Assembly: GCF_000311725.1 (NCBI RefSeq)
Contig: NZ_HE978513.1
Location: 486,005-550,004 of the forward strand
DNA length: 64,000 nucleotides
Reading direction: 5' to 3'
Source: Robertmurraya massiliosenegalensis JC6
GTDB taxonomy: Bacteria; Bacillota; Bacilli; Bacillales; Cytobacillaceae
Positions 28,376-38,644 of the stretch are shown one piece after another; position 1 is the first letter of the stretch; each line of letters begins with the position of its first letter. Under the pieces are notes generated by a model. That model saw only the letters and a program-made list of their open reading frames with translations. It was not told where the DNA came from and searched no databases. The position numbers were made by a program, and so were the translations under genes.

Positions 28376-29767
28376 TTAATTTGGAGTTACAAAAGAACCT
28401 GATGGCTTGCCAATTATTTCACCATTTTTCATGACGATTTTACCACCAACAATGGTCTGAACTGGCATTCCTTTAATATTAAATCCATCAAATGCTGTTA
28501 CCTTACTTTTACTATGTAGGTTTTGGCTTTTAATAATCGACTTTTTGTCCATATCCACAATAGTTATATCTGCGTCAGCTCCAATTTTTATTTCTCCTTT
28601 GCTTTCAAGTCCAAATAATTTTGCAGGTCCTTCTGAAAGTAATCTTCTCAAATCAAATATCGAAATTTTCTCTTCGTTTACTGCATTTATCATTAGGGGA
28701 ACCAGTGATTCAACCCCACACATTCCAGCAGGGATTGACCATAAGTCTCCTTCCTTTTCTTCTTCAGTGTGTGGTGCATGATCTGAGCAAACTAATGAAA
28801 TCGTTCCATCACGTAAAGCGTTCCATAGTTCCTCTTGATCCTTCTTAAATTTCACAGGGGGATATACTTTCATTTTCGGGCCAATCTCTTCATAGTCCTC
28901 AGCGGATAAAAATAAATAGTGTGGACATGTTTCCGCAGTTATCGGATAACCTTCCTTTTGTGCTTGACGAATATGTTGAATGCCCTCTGCTGTACTGACA
29001 TGTAATACATGAAGTCTTGCACCAGTCTTTTTAGCCATTGAGATCCCTGCTTGTATCGTTAATTCCTCCGCTAAATTGGGTCTACCCTCTAGGAGATCCA
29101 AGTACGTTTTTCGATTTGGGTCCACAGACACCTTTTGAGTTAAATACTGAATCAAATCACTATTTTCTGCATGGATAGCAAATACTTGCCCTGTCTTTGC
29201 CACCTCCTGAAACATCTCAAATACCTCACCGTCAGAAAATGGTGGAATCACATCTTTCATCTCAGGATGATAGTTATACATTAATTGAAAAGTCTGTGAA
29301 TGAACGGCATAACCCCAGAAGAACTTAAATCCAATTACTCCCGATTGATGCAAAGATGTCAATTCCTCAAGATTCAGTTTCCCAAGACATATAGCCCAAA
29401 TTCCAAAATTAACAAATGCTTTACTTTCTAAGTTCTTAATCTGTCTTTGCAAGTTTGCTACGTTATTAATTGGCGGATTTGTATTAGGCATTTCAAAAAT
29501 AGTCGTAACGCCTCCAGCAGCAGCTGCTTGAGTTGAATGATAAAAATCCTCTTTATAGGTGGCTCCTGGATCACGAGAATGGACATGGGTGTCAATAAAA
29601 CCAGGAAAAATATATTTACCTTCAGCGTTTACTATTTCAATTGCTTCGTCGGATAATTCAGCACTCGTAATGACTTCAATTTTTCCATCTTTCACATAGA
29701 TACTTCCTTTATAAAGACTCTTTTCTGAAACAATGATTCCATTTTTGATTAATAGATCAAATTTCAT
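28376..29767 (-). CDS. dihydroorotase-type cyclic amidohydrolase
   Basis: A 463-residue amidohydrolase. Metal ligands are H61 and H63 (HVHSRDPG), carbamylated K148 (GFKFF), H199 (AIHAE), H256 (LHVLH) and D329 (SDHAPH). R65 and the MPNTNPP loop (93-99) are the carboxylate- and ring-binding features of dihydroorotases; allantoinases have Asn after HxHx and a different loop, and hydantoinases differ again. It would hydrolyse dihydroorotate to N-carbamoyl-aspartate. The neighbours PyrD, PyrK and a carbamoylase suggest use in the degradative direction. It is 68 bases downstream of pyrD. Allantoinase is the main alternative. Confidence 0.8.
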   Translation of the reverse strand: MKFDLLIKNGIIVSEKSLYKGSIYVKDGKIEVITSAELSDEAIEIVNAEGKYIFPGFIDTHVHSRDPGATYKEDFYHSTQAAAAGGVTTIFEMPNTNPPINNVANLQRQIKNLESKAFVNFGIWAICLGKLNLEELTSLHQSGVIGFKFFWGYAVHSQTFQLMYNYHPEMKDVIPPFSDGEVFEMFQEVAKTGQVFAIHAENSDLIQYLTQKVSVDPNRKTYLDLLEGRPNLAEELTIQAGISMAKKTGARLHVLHVSTAEGIQHIRQAQKEGYPITAETCPHYLFLSAEDYEEIGPKMKVYPPVKFKKDQEELWNALRDGTISLVCSDHAPHTEEEKEGDLWSIPAGMCGVESLVPLMINAVNEEKISIFDLRRLLSEGPAKLFGLESKGEIKIGADADITIVDMDKKSIIKSQNLHSKSKVTAFDGFNIKGMPVQTIVGGKIVMKNGEIIGKPSGSFVTPN

Positions 29768-29835
29768 AGTATCAGCTCTTTTCTTGATTAGTTGGTTTCT
29801 TATAGAAGGTTTATATACAGCGTATCTTCCTCCGT

Positions 29836-30759
29836 TTACCCTATTTCAATTTTTCCTATTAAATCACGTACATCTGTCATTTCATGCTGATTCATATACG
29901 AATCAATTTCATTTAGAATTCTAAGCATCGCATCCGGTTGAATAAAGCTAGAAGTCCCCACTTGAACAGCAGAAGCTCCAGCCAACATCATTTCAATTGC
30001 ATCTTCTCCCGAAGAAACTCCTCCACAACCAATAATAGGAATCTTTACTACTTGTGCGACTTGGTAAATCATTCTAATAATGACTGGTTTAATTGCTGGG
30101 CCTGATAATCCCCCCATAACATTTCCAATCTTCGGCTTCCTTGTATGAACATCAATCGACATAGCTAATAATGTGTTCGCCACATTTAAACTATTGCTTC
30201 CTGCCTCTTCTGCAGCTAAGGCAATTTCCTGAATGCTCGTAACATTTGGAGATAGTTTTGCGATGATTGGCTTATGCGTAACCGCTCGTACTTCTTTGAT
30301 TAGTTTAAAAGTCACTTCTGGGTCCATACCAAAAGCAAGACCATTACCTTTTAAATTGGGACATGAAATATTTAACTCTATCGCAGCAACATCATCACTC
30401 TGCGTTACAATATGTGCAATTTCAGCAAATTCATCTATTGAATCAGCCGACAAACTCGAAATTAACGGGGGAGTGAATTTTGAATAGAAAGGAACATAAT
30501 GATCCATATAATATTGGATTCCTTTACTTTGAATTCCAATAGAATTGATCATCCCTGCCACCGTTTCACAAACACGGGGAGTCTTATTTCCAGAGCGCGG
30601 ATCAAGTGTGATACTTTTTGGAACAATCGCACCTAATAGATTAAAATCGATCACACTTTCCATTTCAGGTCCGAATGTTCCAGAAGCAGGCATGATGGGA
30701 TTCTCTAATACTAACCCTCCGATATCAACACGTTTATTTATGAAAGAACCCCTAATCAT
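29836..30759 (-). CDS. pyrD: dihydroorotate dehydrogenase, class 1B catalytic subunit
   Basis: A 307-residue FMN barrel protein. Class 1B signature ELNISCPN places the catalytic base at Cys133; ASGTFG, VPKSITLDPRSGN and GCGGVSSGEDAIEMMLAGA (phosphate-binding) are typical. The start ATG at 30759 overlaps the pyrK stop as ATGA and has AAGGTGG upstream; the longer ORF start at 30801 is unsupported. The partner PyrK allows electron exchange with NAD(H), so orotate reduction by NADH is possible. A biosynthetic pyr operon is not in this window, so this copy may be catabolic. Confidence 0.88.
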   Translation of the reverse strand: MIRGSFINKRVDIGGLVLENPIMPASGTFGPEMESVIDFNLLGAIVPKSITLDPRSGNKTPRVCETVAGMINSIGIQSKGIQYYMDHYVPFYSKFTPPLISSLSADSIDEFAEIAHIVTQSDDVAAIELNISCPNLKGNGLAFGMDPEVTFKLIKEVRAVTHKPIIAKLSPNVTSIQEIALAAEEAGSNSLNVANTLLAMSIDVHTRKPKIGNVMGGLSGPAIKPVIIRMIYQVAQVVKIPIIGCGGVSSGEDAIEMMLAGASAVQVGTSSFIQPDAMLRILNEIDSYMNQHEMTDVRDLIGKIEIG

Positions 30760-31538
30760 AAGACCACCTTTTCTAAAGGAAAAACTGGTCCTTCGACACA
30801 TACTCGTGCACTTTTTAATTCTGTCCCCTCATTGATTTGACAAACACAGGCAAAACAAACGCCCATTGCACAGCCCATATGTTCTTCTAATGCGATTTCT
30901 CCTCTTAATCTTTCTTCTTTAGCTATTTTTTGTAATAAGAGGGACAATCTCCTTGAGCCACATGTGTATACTGAACGGATATTGTTCTCAACTAGTAATC
31001 TATTAATTAATCCTTCAACATAATCTAGATTACTTGAGCCTTCCTCATCTGTTACTTTGTATACTTTTACTCCAATACTTGAAAGATAACTAGCTGCGAG
31101 TAAATCTTTTTCAGATCTCGCACTTACTATAGCAAAGACCCTTTTATTTAACTTAATTGCCTCGTCTGCTAGAGCAGTTAATGTAGCAATTCCAACACCT
31201 CTAGCAAGAAGTAATAGTTCAGTCTCATCGTTTTTCACCTGAAATCCATTCCCAAGTGGCCCCATTATATCGATATATCCATCCTGCTTTAGTTCAGTCA
31301 TTTTCATCGTACCTAATCCTTTGACAAGGTATAAGAATTCAAGTCTCTCATTACGAGCATCGATCCGAAAAACACTTAATGGACGTCTCAAATAAGGATA
31401 AACACCATCACTGCATAAAATATTAAAAAATTGTCCAGGCTTAACATTTCTATTTAACTTACCTGCTTCAACTGTCATATGCCAATACCTATCACTTACT
31501 TTTACGTTCGAGAGGATTCTAACTTGATTTGTTTCCAT
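30756..31538 (-). CDS. pyrK: dihydroorotate dehydrogenase electron-transfer subunit
   Basis: A 260-residue FAD and [2Fe-2S] subunit. FAD-binding RRPLSVF is near residue 51; the NAD-binding region has LLLARGVGIATLTAL near 108; the C-terminal cluster cysteines are MGCAMGVCFACVC (about 216-228) with a fourth in RVCVEGPVF. It forms the NAD-linked dihydroorotate dehydrogenase with PyrD. Its 3' end overlaps pyrD by 3 bases and its 5' end overlaps the carbamoylase by 20 bases, so the three genes are translationally coupled. Confidence 0.9.
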   Translation of the reverse strand: METNQVRILSNVKVSDRYWHMTVEAGKLNRNVKPGQFFNILCSDGVYPYLRRPLSVFRIDARNERLEFLYLVKGLGTMKMTELKQDGYIDIMGPLGNGFQVKNDETELLLLARGVGIATLTALADEAIKLNKRVFAIVSARSEKDLLAASYLSSIGVKVYKVTDEEGSSNLDYVEGLINRLLVENNIRSVYTCGSRRLSLLLQKIAKEERLRGEIALEEHMGCAMGVCFACVCQINEGTELKSARVCVEGPVFPLEKVVL

Positions 31539-32784
31539 GTTGCTTTTCCCCTTTCATCAAAACAATAGCTTGTTCCTTAGTCATTTCCATTAATAAACTT
31601 AATCCCTTTTCGATATCATTTAACTCTGTAAATTCGTCTGGATGATGACTTAATCCTTGGACTGATGGGACAAATATTAACGAAGTGGGCCATCTTTTTG
31701 ACATATTCATAGAATCATGACCTGCTCCACTTGATAGAAACATATAATCTAATCCTAACCTTTCGCATATTAACACATTGTTTTTCAAAAGTTCTTTATC
31801 CATTAAAACGGGTGATTCTTCCATCATCCATTCAATTTGAACGGAAACACCTCTGTTATCTTTCATTTGTGATATTCCTTTTTGTAATGCTTGAACGACA
31901 CGGTTTCTCGATGAAATATTTGAACTTCTTATATCTACCTTTAGTTTTACAAGTCCGGGAATAACATTTATCGCTCCTGGATAAACTTCCATTGTACCAA
32001 CAGTTCCTACCGTTTCATACTCACTTTCTTTTAACGCAGCCGCTTCAATAAGTAGTGATAACTCGGATGCCGCTAATAATGCATCCTGTCGCTCTTTCAT
32101 ACCCGTTGTTCCAGAGTGGGAACTTTTCCCGGTAATTTTAAGCCCCATTCTTAGTGGAGCCGCAATTCCTGTCACGAGTCCTATATTTTTCTTATTTTCA
32201 ATTAATTTCATCCCTTGTTCTATATGAAGTTCAAAAAAGGACTTTAGTTCACTTTGTATGCGATTCGCTTTTTCCAATTCTTTTTCGTCAAGATTTTGTC
32301 TCTTCAAAGCCTCTTTTAATGTGATCCCCTCACGATCTTTGATTCGAAAGATATCTTTCTTTATATCGCCAATCATAGCTTTACTGCCTATTGTGGAAAC
32401 ATTAAACCTTGCTGATTCTTCACAAGCGAAGGCAATTAATTCGATAGAATGACGAGTTTTTATTCCTTCTTCCATGAAAGCTCTTATTACTTCTAGACCA
32501 CACACAACACCGAGAGTTCCATCATATTTTCCTCCGTTATAAACGGTGTCCAGATGTGAACCAATCGCAACAGCAGGTAATGAATCATCCTCCCCTTCTA
32601 ACCGAGAAATCACATTGCCAGCAGGATCAATCCTAGTTTTCATCCCCAAGGCGGTACATTGTTCTATAAGATAATATTTTGCTTTTTCCTCTTCACATGA
32701 GTAAGCCAACCTTGAAATTCCATCCTCACTCACTCCAAATTCATTCAATGTTTTCAACGTTTGTAATACTCTTTCCATATTCAT
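31519..32784 (-). CDS. M20 family N-carbamoyl-amino-acid hydrolase / ureidosuccinase candidate
   Basis: A 421-residue Zn-dependent amidase of the hydantoinase/carbamoylase family, also home to allantoate amidohydrolase. Motifs are GSHLDTVYNGGKYDGTLG (residues 75-92), FACEESARFNVSTIGSKAM (119-137), LHIEQG, the dimer-domain SSHSGTTGM and AGHDSM with HHPDEFT near the end. Beside dihydroorotase and PyrDK the logical substrate is N-carbamoyl-L-aspartate, giving aspartate, CO2 and ammonia. Other carbamoyl amino acids or allantoate remain possible. It is the first gene after an internal terminator and a palindromic site. Confidence 0.78.
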   Translation of the reverse strand: MNMERVLQTLKTLNEFGVSEDGISRLAYSCEEEKAKYYLIEQCTALGMKTRIDPAGNVISRLEGEDDSLPAVAIGSHLDTVYNGGKYDGTLGVVCGLEVIRAFMEEGIKTRHSIELIAFACEESARFNVSTIGSKAMIGDIKKDIFRIKDREGITLKEALKRQNLDEKELEKANRIQSELKSFFELHIEQGMKLIENKKNIGLVTGIAAPLRMGLKITGKSSHSGTTGMKERQDALLAASELSLLIEAAALKESEYETVGTVGTMEVYPGAINVIPGLVKLKVDIRSSNISSRNRVVQALQKGISQMKDNRGVSVQIEWMMEESPVLMDKELLKNNVLICERLGLDYMFLSSGAGHDSMNMSKRWPTSLIFVPSVQGLSHHPDEFTELNDIEKGLSLLMEMTKEQAIVLMKGEKQHGNKSS

Positions 32785-32879
32785 TAAAACACCTCATTTA
32801 TTGCAAAGTAACATATACATTAAAATACAATAAATTGACTGTGGATACATTTGTTTAAAGAGATAGTAAAAGGTAGTTT

Positions 32880-32901
32880 ATTTTGTCCATTTCAACAAAA
32901 T
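32880..32901. promoter_or_regulatory. palindrome upstream of the carbamoylase gene
   Basis: ATTTTGT and ACAAAAT, 7-bp perfect arms with an 8-base centre (CCATTTCA), sit between the terminator of the OMP decarboxylase gene and the carbamoylase start, about 95 bases from it. A regulator site, perhaps for the PucR-type protein, is plausible; the binding sequence is not known. Confidence 0.4.
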
Positions 32902-32910
32902 TAGCTATTT

Positions 32911-32943
32911 AAAAAAGGCATTGGTGACCAATGCCTTTTTTTG
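32911..32943 (-). terminator. internal terminator of the cluster
   Basis: Stem AAAAAAGGCATTGG / CCAATGCCTTTTTT with a 3-base loop, starting 6 bases after the OMP-decarboxylase-like gene. It should separate that gene from the carbamoylase-pyrKD-dihydroorotase unit. Confidence 0.88.
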
Positions 32944-32948
32944 TTTAT

Positions 32949-33905
32949 TTATGTTGTAAGAAGATCACTATTTTCTTCAATATCCTCTAATAGTTGATTG
33001 ACTTTACTCTTTCCTTCTTGAATCGAAGCTACATTACTAATGATACATGTACCGTTTCTATTGATATGGATGACTGAATTTTGATGTTGAAGAATCATCC
33101 CTTGCTCCTGAGGCAATCCTCTTTTCGTTCGAATACTATATTGAATGAAGTTCTCAATCATTTCTTTGATAGAATTTATCGGTTCAACTAGCACGGTATA
33201 TCGTTGTGTCTCACTACAAAAACGAATGATCTTACATTCTTTAATTGCCGTATGATCGTTTTCGAGAAGGAATTCTTGAACAGCCTTTCTTGGTGAATCA
33301 GAATCATAAATAGCACGCCCAATAATACAAAAATCCGCTCCGGCCTCAATGGCATTTAAGAATGAGCCACCTTGTGAACCGATTCCACAACATAATATAT
33401 TGAGGTCTGGTCCAACTGTTCTTCGCAAATGTTTAATTTGATCTGGACGAGTGCCTGGTGCTTGAATTCCATAACATTGAAAAAAAGCAGCCATCTTCGC
33501 AAAATCTTCTGAGAACTTCCTTGTGAATTCTAATCCCCCTGGATGAGTAAGTTCTGTCACTACAATAACACCCATTTCATCTCCCGCTATTTTCTTTATT
33601 TCAAATAGAGCGTCTGGGCCGATGAATCCATGGACCATAATCATATCTGCCCCGGCTGCCTTAACTAATTTGACAATTCTATTATTGGTAACTGGTACAT
33701 CCGCAACCTTAAAATCTGCAATAATGGGTAATGAATATCGATTTTTAAGTTCTGTTATGATTGAGAGACCTTCAGTTAAAATGAGTGGGTAATTAACTTT
33801 TATTGCATCAATAAGATCGTGACACTCATCCATGATGTCAAAACTTTTTTTCTTATTAGGCAAATCTAAGGCAAGAATAATTTGAGATTGTTTATTTAAA
33901 AACAT
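32949..33905 (-). CDS. archaeal-type OMP decarboxylase with C-terminal extension
   Basis: A 318-residue protein. Residues 1-215 match archaeal-type orotidine-5'-phosphate decarboxylase with the whole catalytic set: D14, K36, D64-x-K66-x-x-D69 (ADFKVADVP), THPGG at 121-125, APGTRPDQI, CGIGSQGG and IIGRAIY with the phosphate-binding R197. Residues about 231-318 form an extra domain not normal for PyrF; HQNSVIHINRNGTCIISN resembles TBP-like folds such as the N-domain of RNase HIII. Bacillus PyrF is of another type, so this copy was probably acquired. It might draw OMP to UMP when orotate floods the cell, or have a new substrate. The hexulose-phosphate synthase alternative is disfavoured by DFKVAD. 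Confidence 0.75.
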   Translation of the reverse strand: MFLNKQSQIILALDLPNKKKSFDIMDECHDLIDAIKVNYPLILTEGLSIITELKNRYSLPIIADFKVADVPVTNNRIVKLVKAAGADMIMVHGFIGPDALFEIKKIAGDEMGVIVVTELTHPGGLEFTRKFSEDFAKMAAFFQCYGIQAPGTRPDQIKHLRRTVGPDLNILCCGIGSQGGSFLNAIEAGADFCIIGRAIYDSDSPRKAVQEFLLENDHTAIKECKIIRFCSETQRYTVLVEPINSIKEMIENFIQYSIRTKRGLPQEQGMILQHQNSVIHINRNGTCIISNVASIQEGKSKVNQLLEDIEENSDLLTT

Positions 33906-34035
33906 AAGTTCCTCCCTTAACTAGCAAAATATGATAACCAGCTTTAAGAGTTTCCTCAATTGGCTACTAATCTGTTACGTCATATACCAAATTTAACAGT
34001 AGTTTCTAGTTATCCTTATCCTAATTTTCATTCAA

Positions 34036-35667
34036 TTATTGATTGAGGAAAAGTGATTTTTTTCTAGAACCCTCAACAGAAGGTTCAAAATATTGATGGA
34101 TCTTTAAGCCTAAATGAATCAACAGCTTATCCTCTGACTTTTGAAGATTTAGTCCTGTGATTTGTCTTATTTTTTGGAGCCTATATTTTAGAGTATTAAC
34201 GTGTATAAATAATGCTTTGGCTGTTTCTTTAAGAGATTCATTACATTTGAAATAGGTCTCTAGTGTTGTAGTTAATTCAAATTCATACTCTTTATCATAA
34301 TCAATAATCCTTTTAATGACGTCTCCATAAAAATCCGTCAATTCTGCATGATTTTCAATTTGAGCAATCAAACGGTACACGCCCAATTCACTATGAAATA
34401 TTATCGATTTCTTCATCCATAGCCTCGGTCCTAATGTAATCGTTTTTTGTGCTTCATGATAACTTTTCCGCAGGCCTTGGATTCCTAAGTAGGTTGATCC
34501 GACTCCTATTCTAATTCGTGTATGAACCCTTTGTTCAATAAGTAGTAATAATGAATCTAGAATCTTTCTAAAATCTTGAGTCACTCTATTTCTCATTGGA
34601 ACAATCATAAGCAAATACCTTCTGTATACCGCACATATAATATGAGGATCCAACTCTTTGATCCCTTTTTCTAATTGATTGATATTTCTTGAAAATAAAT
34701 CTTCCTGTTGAAGCTCTTTTTCAGCGACGACCATACATACATATGGATTACTTTCATGAAGGTTATAAATCCTTCCTTTTTCTAATAAATGTTCAATATT
34801 TTTATCTTCGCTAAATAATAAATCACGTATAAAATCATTTTTATAATGCTGCTCTATATCATACTTAATTTTCTTTTTAAGAAATTCTACTGAAAGTAGT
34901 GTGGCTGCTTTCTCTTGAATCGCTAAATCTACCTCCATAAACTGTGAATGATAGCTCCAACAAGTTATATTTCCATATAACTCTCCATCTATAATGATCG
35001 GTGTCACAATACAGGATTCTTCATTCTTTTCCCTACCTTTTCGAATCATTCGAATAGGTCTTTGTACGACTTCTAATTCTTTAATTTGTTGAGGTGTCAT
35101 GGGCAATAAACTTTCCAATTGCTCATGAACAGGGATATACGGCACGTTACTTTCCAGTAATACCTTACTTTTTGTTAAATAGGACAATGTTTGAATAAAT
35201 TGATTAAAATCTCCTTTAGCAATAGAGATTTCATTCAAAACTCTCGTTGCATGCTCTAAATCTTCTTGTAACACGATTTTATCATTGAAAATGGCATGCA
35301 TAGCAGGTGACAAAATATCAAGGTAGGAGATTTCTTCAGGAATTTCAATGAGCGTTATGCCCATTTCATCCGCCTTTTTTTTCATTTCTTCAGGAATCGC
35401 ATCAATAAATCTAACAGGCTTAATGGCGAGAGCAGTTGTCCCGGCTTTGTACAGCTTTTCTATTAACTGTATTTGATCATCTAAATCATCTTTTATGGGA
35501 TATAGACTTGTGATCAAAAGTTCATTTCCTCTTAACCACTGAACAATATCAGGGACCTCCATGATGGTTACGTTTGTTACGATCCTCTCTACTCCCTGCT
35601 GTCCCGCTATAATCTTACAATTCCTTAAGCCACCTATATTCATTAGCTTTTTTAATGGTACTCCCAT
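34036..35667 (-). CDS. PucR-family transcriptional regulator
   Basis: About 543 residues. The N-terminal PucR ligand domain covers about 1-125 (GLRNCKIIAGQQGVERIV, GNELLITSLYPI), a central GGDEF-like region follows, and the C-terminal PucR-type helix-turn-helix has CNESLKETAKALFIHVNTLK and YRLQKI. PucR proteins activate purine and ureide catabolism with ring or ureide ligands. The start ATG at 35667 has GGGAGGG 5 bases upstream; the upstream ATG at 35682 overlaps this site. It lies between the transporter and decarboxylase genes, so it probably controls the cluster. The effector is unknown. Confidence 0.87.
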   Translation of the reverse strand: MGVPLKKLMNIGGLRNCKIIAGQQGVERIVTNVTIMEVPDIVQWLRGNELLITSLYPIKDDLDDQIQLIEKLYKAGTTALAIKPVRFIDAIPEEMKKKADEMGITLIEIPEEISYLDILSPAMHAIFNDKIVLQEDLEHATRVLNEISIAKGDFNQFIQTLSYLTKSKVLLESNVPYIPVHEQLESLLPMTPQQIKELEVVQRPIRMIRKGREKNEESCIVTPIIIDGELYGNITCWSYHSQFMEVDLAIQEKAATLLSVEFLKKKIKYDIEQHYKNDFIRDLLFSEDKNIEHLLEKGRIYNLHESNPYVCMVVAEKELQQEDLFSRNINQLEKGIKELDPHIICAVYRRYLLMIVPMRNRVTQDFRKILDSLLLLIEQRVHTRIRIGVGSTYLGIQGLRKSYHEAQKTITLGPRLWMKKSIIFHSELGVYRLIAQIENHAELTDFYGDVIKRIIDYDKEYEFELTTTLETYFKCNESLKETAKALFIHVNTLKYRLQKIRQITGLNLQKSEDKLLIHLGLKIHQYFEPSVEGSRKKSLFLNQ

Positions 35668-35707
35668 CTTATCCCTCCCCATTACCGTAGAAAGCTTTTT
35701 AACGTTG

Positions 35708-36982
35708 TCATTCTATAAATCGTAATAGGAATAAAGAAACTTCTGGAATGTAAGTAATAATAAATAAACCGACTAAGTTACTTAATAAAAATTTATAGAC
35801 ACCTGGTAACATTTCACTCATCGGAATTTTAGTTATTCCTTGCGTTACAAATAGATTCAGACCAAATGGTGGTGTGTATAAACCAATGGCTAAATTAGAA
35901 ATCATGATAATCCCAAGATGAACGGGGTCAATTCCCATAGAAACAGCCGTATGGAATATTAACGGAGCAACAATGATGATAGCTGCGACTCCTTCCATGA
36001 ACATTCCTAAGATTAAAAGAACGACGTTAAGAATTAATAGGAATAAGAATGGTGAATGAATATTCTCTGTTATCCAAGTTGCAATCAATTGAGGAACTTG
36101 TCCTCGTGTAAGCATCCAACCTAACACCTGTGCAGCAGCTACTAACACAAGAACCTGTGCTGAAAGAACCGCAGAATCAACACATACTTTATATAAAGAC
36201 TTTAAATTCATTTCCCTATATACAAATAGACTAATAATCAAAGCATAAACCGCTGAAACACCAGCAGCTTCTGTCGGTGTAAACACTCCTCCATATATTC
36301 CACCGACAATGATAACTGGGATCAGCAGCGCCCATAGAGCCTTTTTAGTTGCATCCCACAATTCTTTCCCACTTGCTTTTTTATTACGAGGAATATTGTT
36401 CTTTCGTGCATAGTAGTAGATGTAAACTAATGATGTAGAACCTAAAATGATTCCTGCTCCTATCCCTGCGATAAACAAGCTCCCTACCGACACTCCTGTT
36501 ACAGAACCAAAGATAATCATGGTAATACTGGGTGGAATAATTAAAGAAACTGCTCCTGAAGATGCAAGTAGTCCAGCGGAAAATTTCCTATCATAATTTC
36601 CTTTAAGCATTTCCGGATACATAATTTTCCCAATAGCAACCACTGTAGCAGGACTTGAACCAGAAAGGGCCCCAAAAAACATACTTGAAATTTGAGTAGT
36701 CATTGCTACTCCTCCAGTAAGATGTCCTACGATTGCTTTTGCCCAGCGTAGAATACGATTAGACAATCCTCCAACTTCCATGATATTGGCAGCAAAAATA
36801 AAAAAAGGAAGGGCCATTAAGGCAAACTGGTCGATTCCACCAAAAAGTCGCTGAATAAGAATCATCGGCTGTATATCCGTTAAAAAAATGAGTGTAATAA
36901 AGGAAGAGATCGTTAACGCGACGAAAATCGGTGCACTACTAAATAAAAAGAAAAATATTAGTATTATCAAACAAATAATCAT
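35708..36982 (-). CDS. dctM: TRAP transporter large permease DctM
   Basis: A 424-residue membrane protein with about 11-12 spans and TRAP large-subunit hallmarks: ALPFFIFAANIMEVGGLSNR, SGSSPATVVAIGKIMYPEM, LLASSGAVSLIIPPSI and FTPTEAAGVSAVY. It energises uptake with an ion gradient. Its start overlaps the dctQ stop (ATGA), and pucR follows 40 bases later. Together with DctP and DctQ it forms a complete TRAP system for an organic acid, here most likely orotate or a related carboxylate. Confidence 0.93.
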   Translation of the reverse strand: MIICLIILIFFFLFSSAPIFVALTISSFITLIFLTDIQPMILIQRLFGGIDQFALMALPFFIFAANIMEVGGLSNRILRWAKAIVGHLTGGVAMTTQISSMFFGALSGSSPATVVAIGKIMYPEMLKGNYDRKFSAGLLASSGAVSLIIPPSITMIIFGSVTGVSVGSLFIAGIGAGIILGSTSLVYIYYYARKNNIPRNKKASGKELWDATKKALWALLIPVIIVGGIYGGVFTPTEAAGVSAVYALIISLFVYREMNLKSLYKVCVDSAVLSAQVLVLVAAAQVLGWMLTRGQVPQLIATWITENIHSPFLFLLILNVVLLILGMFMEGVAAIIIVAPLIFHTAVSMGIDPVHLGIIMISNLAIGLYTPPFGLNLFVTQGITKIPMSEMLPGVYKFLLSNLVGLFIITYIPEVSLFLLRFIE

Positions 36983-37473
36983 ACTTGTAACTCCTCGATA
37001 GACTCAGGTTTTCTTCTATTATCAAACAAATTCATAACTAGATGGATTAGGGATAATGTTGCACCAAGCGGAATACATAAGTAGACCCAATACATTTTAA
37101 TGCGAAGGGACGGGGTAATTTGACCGCTATTCATACTAAATAAAACCAATTCAGTTCCATAGTAGATTAAAAAGAGCATAAGAATGATTGATACGAAGTT
37201 CACAAAATATCCGATTATTTTTTTCCACTTTTCAGACATATATTCCAAAAAGAAATCAATTCCTACATGCAACCCCCTACCAAAACATACACTACAACCA
37301 ATAAATGTAATCCAAATCATCATATAGCGAATTAATTCTTCCGCCCAAGTGGTATTAGCACTAAAAAAATAACGAAGGACTATATTAATAAATAGAACAA
37401 ATGTTGCTGCTAAAATACTGATTCCAAGAAACCATCCTTCGATTCGAATCAACCATACTTTCATAGCTAACAT
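36979..37473 (-). CDS. dctQ: TRAP transporter small permease DctQ
   Basis: About 164 residues with four membrane spans and the TRAP small-subunit pattern NTTWAEELIRYMMIWITFIG and VGIDFFLEYM. The start is placed at ATG 37473, where AAAGGTGG lies 4 bases upstream; the ORF could open at 37503 but without a site. It bridges the dctP and dctM genes as in most TRAP operons. Confidence 0.88.
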   Translation of the reverse strand: MLAMKVWLIRIEGWFLGISILAATFVLFINIVLRYFFSANTTWAEELIRYMMIWITFIGCSVCFGRGLHVGIDFFLEYMSEKWKKIIGYFVNFVSIILMLFLIYYGTELVLFSMNSGQITPSLRIKMYWVYLCIPLGATLSLIHLVMNLFDNRRKPESIEELQV

Positions 37474-37579
37474 TTTACCACCTTTCATCCCGATATTTTC
37501 CATTTATAATATATTTAGGAAAGCTAGGAAATGTTTATTTAATCAACATAACCTGCTTTCCCATTAACAAAAAAAACGA

Positions 37580-38644
37580 TTATTTCTGAGCTTCGTCGAT
37601 TGCCTCGTATAGCTTGTCTAACAGTTCAACTTGCTGACCTGAATTATATACCTTTGCATGCATTGGAAGTGAAGCTTCTTTGAAAGCGGCTATTTCTTCC
37701 TCTGTTAACTCATAATAGTTCACACCACTATCGATGATTTGTTCAAGAAAATCTGCTTCTACCTCTGCAAGATTTTCACGAGCAGCTGTTTTTCCAGCAA
37801 GCTCTGCCTCTAGTATTACTTCTTGTAATGAACCTGAAAGTCCATCAAACCATCCTTTATTTGCCATCAGTACATATGTCATAGTTCCGTGATAACTCTG
37901 AATTACATTTTTCTGAACCTCATGATAATTATTGAGAAAGATCGTTTGTAGTGGATTCTCTTGTCCATCTACTACACCTTGCTGTAAAGAGTTATAAACT
38001 TCTGAATATGGTACTGGTATCGCAGTACCGCCCCATGCAGTGTACTGTTCAATCAAAACAGGTGATTCCATTACACGCATTGTTAATCCTTTAAAATCTC
38101 CAGGGCTATGAATTTCTTTTGAACCTGTCGTAAACAATTTGAAGCCACCTGGCCAGTAGCCTAGCCCTTGGAAACCACCTTGTTCAAGTGTTCCTAAAAG
38201 TTCCTTACCAACGTCCCCATCTAGCACTTCATATGTTTGCTCTTTATCAGCTGGCCATAAATATGGAAGATCGATTGCCTTTATATCATCGACAAAAGGT
38301 GAAACTACTGCCGTTGGTTGCATCGTAATATCTATTTCACCTATCTGAGTACCTTCTACCTGCTCTCTTAAACTACCTAATTGTGAAGCTGGAAAAAGGT
38401 TAACTGTGACTTTTCCACCCGTTTTTTCCTCTACTACTTCCTTAAATTTTAATGCTCCAACATGTTCAGGACTTTCAAGAGGCTGGTTATGACTAAAAGT
38501 TATCTCCATCTCTTCGAATTCCGCTTCATCTCCGGAAGAAGAATCAGGTTCATCACTACTCCCCCCATTGCTATTATTACTTCCACATGCCACTAAACCT
38601 AACATGAACATTAACGAAAAACACAAAATTAATACTTTCTTCAT
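37580..38644 (-). CDS. dctP: TRAP transporter substrate-binding lipoprotein DctP
   Basis: A 354-residue extracytoplasmic binding protein. A lipoprotein signal with lipobox LVAC has Cys20, followed by a Ser/Gly/acidic linker to about 44. Residues 46-354 are the DctP fold with SHNQPLESPEHVGALKFKE, FPASQLG and LTMRVMESP; R190 is the usual ligand-carboxylate arginine. A carboxylate substrate is therefore expected. It is the first gene of the dctPQM-pucR unit. Substrate identity as orotate is inference from the downstream enzymes. Confidence 0.92.
   Translation of the reverse strand: MKKVLILCFSLMFMLGLVACGSNNSNGGSSDEPDSSSGDEAEFEEMEITFSHNQPLESPEHVGALKFKEVVEEKTGGKVTVNLFPASQLGSLREQVEGTQIGEIDITMQPTAVVSPFVDDIKAIDLPYLWPADKEQTYEVLDGDVGKELLGTLEQGGFQGLGYWPGGFKLFTTGSKEIHSPGDFKGLTMRVMESPVLIEQYTAWGGTAIPVPYSEVYNSLQQGVVDGQENPLQTIFLNNYHEVQKNVIQSYHGTMTYVLMANKGWFDGLSGSLQEVILEAELAGKTAARENLAEVEADFLEQIIDSGVNYYELTEEEIAAFKEASLPMHAKVYNSGQQVELLDKLYEAIDEAQK

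Follow-up and report, generated by a model that had tools for sequence, protein, structure and literature searches.

We analyzed a gene cluster of Robertmurraya massiliosenegalensis JC6 in a stretch of 64,000 nucleotides (contig NZ_HE978513.1, positions 486,005 to 550,004 of assembly GCF_000311725.1; the window). Nine genes run on the minus strand from position 38644 down to 28376 in the order dctP, dctQ, dctM, pucR, pyrF, the M20 carbamoylase gene, pyrK, pyrD and the dihydroorotase gene (Table 1). A first-pass annotation, made from the letters of the DNA, had read eight of them as a locus for orotate uptake and degradation, and all eight are open reading frames whose Pfam and NCBIfam families agree with the names given. 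It had also argued that a locus without carbamoyl-phosphate synthetase, aspartate transcarbamylase (ATCase) and orotate phosphoribosyltransferase (OPRT) is unlikely to be a synthesis operon. The three enzymes are indeed missing from the nine genes, but the argument needs qualifying, since pyrF, between pucR and the M20 gene, had been overlooked.

The genes dctQ and dctM, as well as pyrK and pyrD, overlap by 4 bases, and the M20 gene and pyrK overlap by 20 bases; pyrF is flanked by gaps of 130 and 164 bases. The pyrK-pyrD overlap follows from a pyrD start at base 30759, which is Met15 of the 321-residue open frame. The catalytic cysteine of PyrD, in the motif NISCPN, is present as claimed; its earlier number, 133, holds only with this start, and in the 321-residue frame it is residue 147.

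Table 1. Genes of the cluster, with their positions in the window, and proteins of other loci (L numbers) discussed in the text. Paired values are bit score/model cut-off.
Feature	Position	Strand	Evidence
dctP, TRAP substrate-binding protein, candidate orotate receptor	37580..38644	-	PF03480, 277.8 bits; nearest solved chain 4NN3; Lys at the place of Arg152
dctQ, TRAP small permease	36979..37503	-	PF04290
dctM, TRAP large permease	35708..36982	-	PF06808, TIGR00786
pucR-type regulator, candidate cluster regulator	34036..35682	-	PF07905 and PF13556; L044 and L045 have homologues, 61-62% identical, in the same position
pyrF, archaeal-type OMP decarboxylase, extended by about 105 residues at the C-terminus	32949..33905	-	NF010386, 219/208; alignment with 2cz5
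M20 carbamoylase, candidate N-carbamoyl-L-aspartate amidohydrolase	31519..32784	-	TIGR01879, 400.4/204; invariant metal-site residues
pyrK, electron-transfer subunit	30756..31538	-	PF10418; cluster cysteines
pyrD, class 1B type, candidate orotate reductase	29836..30759 (open frame to 30801)	-	NF005574, 372.8/269; 22-row tree group
Dihydroorotase-type amidohydrolase	28376..29767	-	TIGR00857, 356.1/279.05; HVHSRDPG and SDHAPHT
PyrF plasmid relatives	L013 9983-10681; L014 9974-10681; L015 9980-10633
PGA_cap-type protein	L044 6205-7503; L045 12610-13920; L049 11506-12813; also L050, L061, L063, L064, L066

Enzymes of the cluster and the second pyr operon

PyrD belongs to class 1B by model NF005574, by TIGR01037 (344.1/270) and by its NISCPN cysteine. 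PyrK passed PF10418 (51.5/23.9), has PyrD as its partner and carries the four cluster cysteines noted earlier, at residues 223, 228, 231 and 247, which were invariant in 4 aligned rows; it fell below the cut-off of every NCBIfam PyrK equivalog (best 161.6/314). The ring hydrolase shows the dihydroorotase (DHOase) motifs DTHVHSR (HxHxR) and MPNTN, both named in the first-pass annotation, as well as SDHAPH, and none of the listed equivalog DHOase models reached its cut-off. Solved DHOases have HVHLREPG and DHAPHT at the places of HVHSRDPG and SDHAPHT, while two solved allantoinases differ there (HVHFNEPG or HTHISEPG, and SDHSP). The allantoinase models gave a mixed result, as the hydrolase passed TIGR03178 but stayed below the cut-offs of PRK06189 and of the AllB model PRK08044. 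The metal-site residues of the M20 enzyme (H77, D79, D88, E122, E123, H187 and H380) were invariant in 17 aligned rows. No N-carbamoyl-L-aspartate amidohydrolase model was found by name among the NCBIfam matches of the window proteins; judged by its sequence, which does not fix a substrate, the M20 enzyme is a candidate for that activity.

PyrF is an orotidine monophosphate (OMP) decarboxylase, as it also passed TIGR01740 (151.6/92.3) and scored only 60.3/200 with the HxlA model TIGR03128. The protein has 318 residues, of which 9-211 align with the 2cz5 chain and about 105 more follow; an AlphaFold model made without an alignment had a mean pLDDT (predicted local distance difference test) of 45. 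In overlapping samples of genomes, PyrF was found in its own genome only, in 1 of 193 of the family (E<=1e-30), 1 of 397 of the order (E<=1e-20) and 1 of 398 of the phylum (E<=1e-30), and it was absent from the 8 other family loci described below. PyrF is thus a local addition and not part of the core. Its base composition did not mark pyrF as foreign (0.358 versus 0.375 for the window). The nearest plasmid relatives, 45-50% identical, are on Vibrio and Agrobacterium plasmids. We rejected the opened ones as orotate loci, as their neighbors are aminotransferases, tmk (dTMP-kinase-like) and adenylation or NUDIX genes; these are perhaps natural-product clusters.

The same genome carries a full pyrR-pyrP-pyrB-pyrC-carA-carB-pyrK-pyrD-pyrF-pyrE run on another contig (C1), so that the PyrD and PyrK of the cluster are extra copies. 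The first-pass annotation would have taken the lack of a second pyrD/pyrK as evidence that these genes are biosynthetic. While PyrC, PyrD and PyrK have homologues in the biosynthetic operon, that operon has the three synthesis enzymes which the cluster lacks. The cluster PyrD is 46.7% identical to its biosynthetic counterpart but 52.9-54.5% identical to the PyrDs of distant plasmid loci, and PyrK likewise is 29.8% identical to its counterpart and 36.8-39.6% identical to the plasmid-locus PyrKs. We rejected a biosynthetic operon as a less likely reading of the cluster.

A separate PyrD lineage and a recurrent gene set

We then built a PyrD tree of 42 rows, 22 of them from catabolic-type loci (21 independent ones, as locus L062 repeats L049). 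Left out of the group of 22 before counting were Roseivivax L025, in which no M20 gene adjoins pyrK-pyrD and the binding protein is of the arginine type, three rows of a genus designated f72, and locus L066. All 22 catabolic-type rows, from Bacillota and Pseudomonadota, fell on one side of one branch (support 100/98), while 9 biosynthetic PyrDs of Bacillales genomes formed a separate group (100/100). Seven positions distinguish the 22 cluster-type PyrDs from 15 biosynthetic rows; they include Ser92, Cys259 and Gln280, where the biosynthetic rows have Asn, mostly Met and mostly Ala, respectively. The three f72 rows were sisters of the 22-row group (98/98) and have four of the seven positions. 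The cysteine of N(I/V)SCPN was conserved in the 11 PyrD rows displayed.

The cluster PyrK had matches in 9 of 193 family genomes, its own included, from 5 of 25 genera (E<=1e-42). All 8 other carriers have M20-PyrK-PyrD-DHOase in the same order, so that M20 is present in 9 of 9 family loci; this recurrence, which the first-pass annotation had proposed to look for, argues that the cluster is more than chance. A further PyrD, which shares 76-84% identity with the biosynthetic enzyme, is present in each of the 8. TRAP (tripartite ATP-independent periplasmic) genes and PucR accompany the set as in the window in two of the 8, and a major facilitator superfamily (MFS) carrier, 48-51% identical to the carriers of Klebsiella and Variovorax loci, does so in six; in the two MFS-type loci checked the regulator is of the IclR type.

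Among the best 80 of 544 relatives in named genomes, 37 were annotated. M20, PyrK and PyrD occurred together in 5 of these (L061-L064 and L066) and not in the remaining 32. Halalkalibacter oceani (L061), Salibacterium aidingense (L063) and Pullulanibacillus pueri (L064) carry the same set as the family loci. L066 comes from the metagenome-assembled genome of a member of the Lachnospiraceae; besides M20, PyrK and PyrD it has two DHOase-type genes and PucR-like genes. In the phylum sample, PyrK matched in 10 of 398 genomes (E<=1e-45): its own, three of f72 and six whose loci (L054-L059, with L055 on a short contig) resemble biosynthetic pyr operons. Two f72 loci (L052 and L060) have M20-PyrC-PyrK-PyrD and a sodium symporter, and the third (L053) is a 5-kb contig that ends short of the place of the M20 gene. 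In L052 (3019-6593), cyanophycin synthetase and cyanophycinase genes adjoin the cluster, which would fit storage of aspartate nitrogen.

Of the 12 distinct Bacillota loci that have the set, 7 adjoin a gene for a PGA_cap-type protein, which is also encoded in L066 (Table 1). This protein is absent from the window, and four PGA_cap genes lie at other places in the same genome. Its only NCBIfam match was the lasso-peptide epimerase MslH, far below cut-off (293/700); it is perhaps a racemase of a pathway intermediate.

PyrK also matched 87 plasmid records (E<=1e-20), 53 of them from Klebsiella. PyrK-PyrD and a zinc-dependent hydrolase stood in a row in 9 of the 10 plasmid loci opened; among these 9, a DHOase is annotated in 4 and an OPRT-like gene is present in 6, and no ATCase was found on any of 8 such plasmids searched (E<=1e-20). 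The M20 enzymes of Bacillota and Pseudomonadota loci are only 27-30% identical, and the window DHOase had no blastp match to the PyrC of Klebsiella and Variovorax. Since the same steps are filled by different enzyme lineages, the reactions appear to be what is kept.

On many Klebsiella plasmids the set is PyrK-PyrD-zinc hydrolase-PyrC, in L017 (9169-13317) a few kilobases from a lac operon. An unnamed conserved protein of about 103-109 residues closes plasmid loci (L022, 11809-12135, with equivalents in L016, L017, L018, L019, L021 and L023). A relation between the C-terminal extension of PyrF and the hypothetical protein of about 108 residues in plasmid loci was rejected, as the two have no similarity.

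The TRAP binding protein

The nearest solved relative of the window DctP was 4NN3 (196.3 bits; next 169.4), a receptor of Maridesulfovibrio salexigens. According to one report, orotic acid was the ligand bound to 4NN3, and a lysine takes the place of the Arg152 found in the other structures compared (PMC11668362); another lists orotic acid among newly found TRAP ligands (PMC5812351). This lysine occurred in 8 of 8 aligned binding proteins from orotate-type loci (the window, L044, L045, L061, L063, L019, L021 and L022), while 4P47 and the Roseivivax L025 protein have arginine. The window DctP has K169 for Arg152, the previously noted R190 for Arg173, an asparagine for Asn213 and a leucine, thus no acidic residue, at column 76, and is by these residues a predicted 4NN3-type receptor. 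In our alignment the residues of 4NN3 at 75 and 76 are Asn and Gln, while PMC11668362 gives Asn at 76.

Identity to the 4NN3 segment is 63% for the binding protein of plasmid locus L019, 66% for that of L021 and 64% for that of L022. Eight plasmids encode a 4NN3-like binding protein (E<=1e-60), and in 6 of them PyrK-PyrD-M20-OPRT directly follow the TRAP genes; on a Paroceanicella plasmid PyrK lies at another place. The proposal that orotate is the imported substrate is supported by the kinship with 4NN3 and by the same enzymes beside 4NN3-like proteins on 6 of 8 plasmids, and an unrelated acid as the ligand of DctP appears unlikely.

Probable orotate degradation and its alternatives

These results suggest that the cluster is very probably an operon dedicated to the uptake and degradation of orotate. 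DctPQM would import orotate, PyrD-PyrK of the separate catabolic lineage would reduce it with NADH to dihydroorotate, the dihydroorotase would open the ring to give N-carbamoyl-L-aspartate, and the M20 enzyme would convert the latter to aspartate, CO2 and ammonia. PucR, as the putative sensor, would switch the operon. Imported orotate may raise OMP through the biosynthetic PyrE, and the extra PyrF could drain OMP to UMP even when the biosynthetic operon as a whole is not switched on; the OPRT genes of plasmid loci would fit the same side branch.

Orotate breakdown was long since worked out as chemistry. Clostridium (Zymobacterium) oroticum ferments orotate by means of orotate reductase, dihydroorotase and ureidosuccinase, a pathway that to our knowledge has been described chemically but not as a gene cluster. 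PyrDK, the DHOase and the M20 enzyme would match these three reactions, run in the same direction, while the window cluster differs by its TRAP carrier, PucR, extra PyrF and Bacillales-type genome.

Several observations weigh against orotate degradation. The ring hydrolase also scored above the cut-off of the allantoinase model TIGR03178 (373.8/357.85), as did the M20 enzyme with a subfamily model named allantoate amidohydrolase (NF006771, 455/399). PyrF, an enzyme of the UMP branch, lies inside the cluster. L066 has the gene set, yet its PyrD is on a long branch outside the catabolic group. Each of the three f72 genomes has a single PyrD (E<=1e-40), so that their cluster may also serve synthesis, and no DHOase gene was seen within the cluster in 5 of the 9 plasmid loci that have the set. 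Although 4NN3 shares the lysine, the window DctP has no more than 36% identity to it over the aligned part, little above the value for 4P47 (34%), and the L063 protein is 29% identical to 4NN3. What links the window DctP to 4NN3 is thus the lysine, together with the top score and the enzymes that the loci share, and not identity alone. Finally, a Paracoccus seriniphilus plasmid encodes a binding protein 55% identical to 4NN3 with no PyrK within 7 kb.

If the cluster served pyrimidine salvage, PyrDK and PyrF would channel imported orotate or dihydroorotate into UMP synthesis, and some other task would fall to the M20 enzyme. The position of PyrF and the OPRT-like genes of six plasmid loci speak for salvage. 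However, M20 is present in every family locus and the zinc hydrolase in all 9 plasmid loci with the set, the other family loci lack PyrF, and UMP synthesis from orotate would need no PyrDK, all of which makes salvage improbable. There is a similarly small chance that L-5-carboxymethylhydantoin, dihydroorotate or N-carbamoyl-aspartate is imported, the DHOase-type enzyme being a carboxymethylhydantoinase. Its sequence leaves room for that activity, extracts of C. oroticum act on carboxymethylhydantoin too, and L066 has this amidohydrolase type in addition to a PyrC type; but PyrD-PyrK would then be left without use, and orotic acid was the ligand in the nearest solved binding protein.

Catabolism of uracil, allantoin or hydantoin with a PyrD resembling dihydropyrimidine dehydrogenase would suit the allantoinase and allantoate model hits, and PucR regulators are known from purine catabolism. 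The ergothioneine pathway is alike in that a ring hydrolase (ErtD, hydantoin-5-propionate hydrolase) is followed by an M20 carbamoylase (ErtE, N-carbamyl-glutamate hydrolase) acting on an acidic substrate. However, the window enzymes stayed below the cut-offs of ErtD (335.7/650) and ErtE (381.4/520), and the M20 enzyme below that of AllC (265.8/597.75). The PyrD likewise matched its class 1B model and not PreA NF006183 (132/335), and the motifs of the ring hydrolase are those of DHOases, unlike the two solved allantoinases. We therefore regard this reading as highly improbable and rejected an allantoin or uracil operon as less likely.

Orotate degradation, by contrast, is very probably the function of a conserved gene set that also travels on plasmids. 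Tentatively, a horizontally spread lineage of orotate-reducing PyrDK may define a dedicated breakdown pathway that spans two or more phyla and occurs on plasmids too. Its hosts might add ring-opening and carbamoyl-releasing enzymes of different lineages, as well as UMP-branch enzymes (OPRT in Pseudomonadota, here a PyrF of archaeal type) that divert imported orotate to UMP at times when the biosynthetic operon is silent; the M20 gene would then be the ureidosuccinase gene, and the MslH/PGA_cap-like protein could be the racemase of an intermediate.

Among the matches listed from the open full-text literature, which mostly leaves subscription papers outside, no title or abstract described such a gene cluster, and because of this scope we claim no priority. 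The cluster provides candidate genes for every step of orotate breakdown, including the hydrolase for carbamoyl-aspartate, and the seven PyrD positions separate the cluster type from the biosynthetic type. In their annotations such genes, many of them plasmid-borne, bear the names of biosynthetic enzymes, which could mislead metabolic models.

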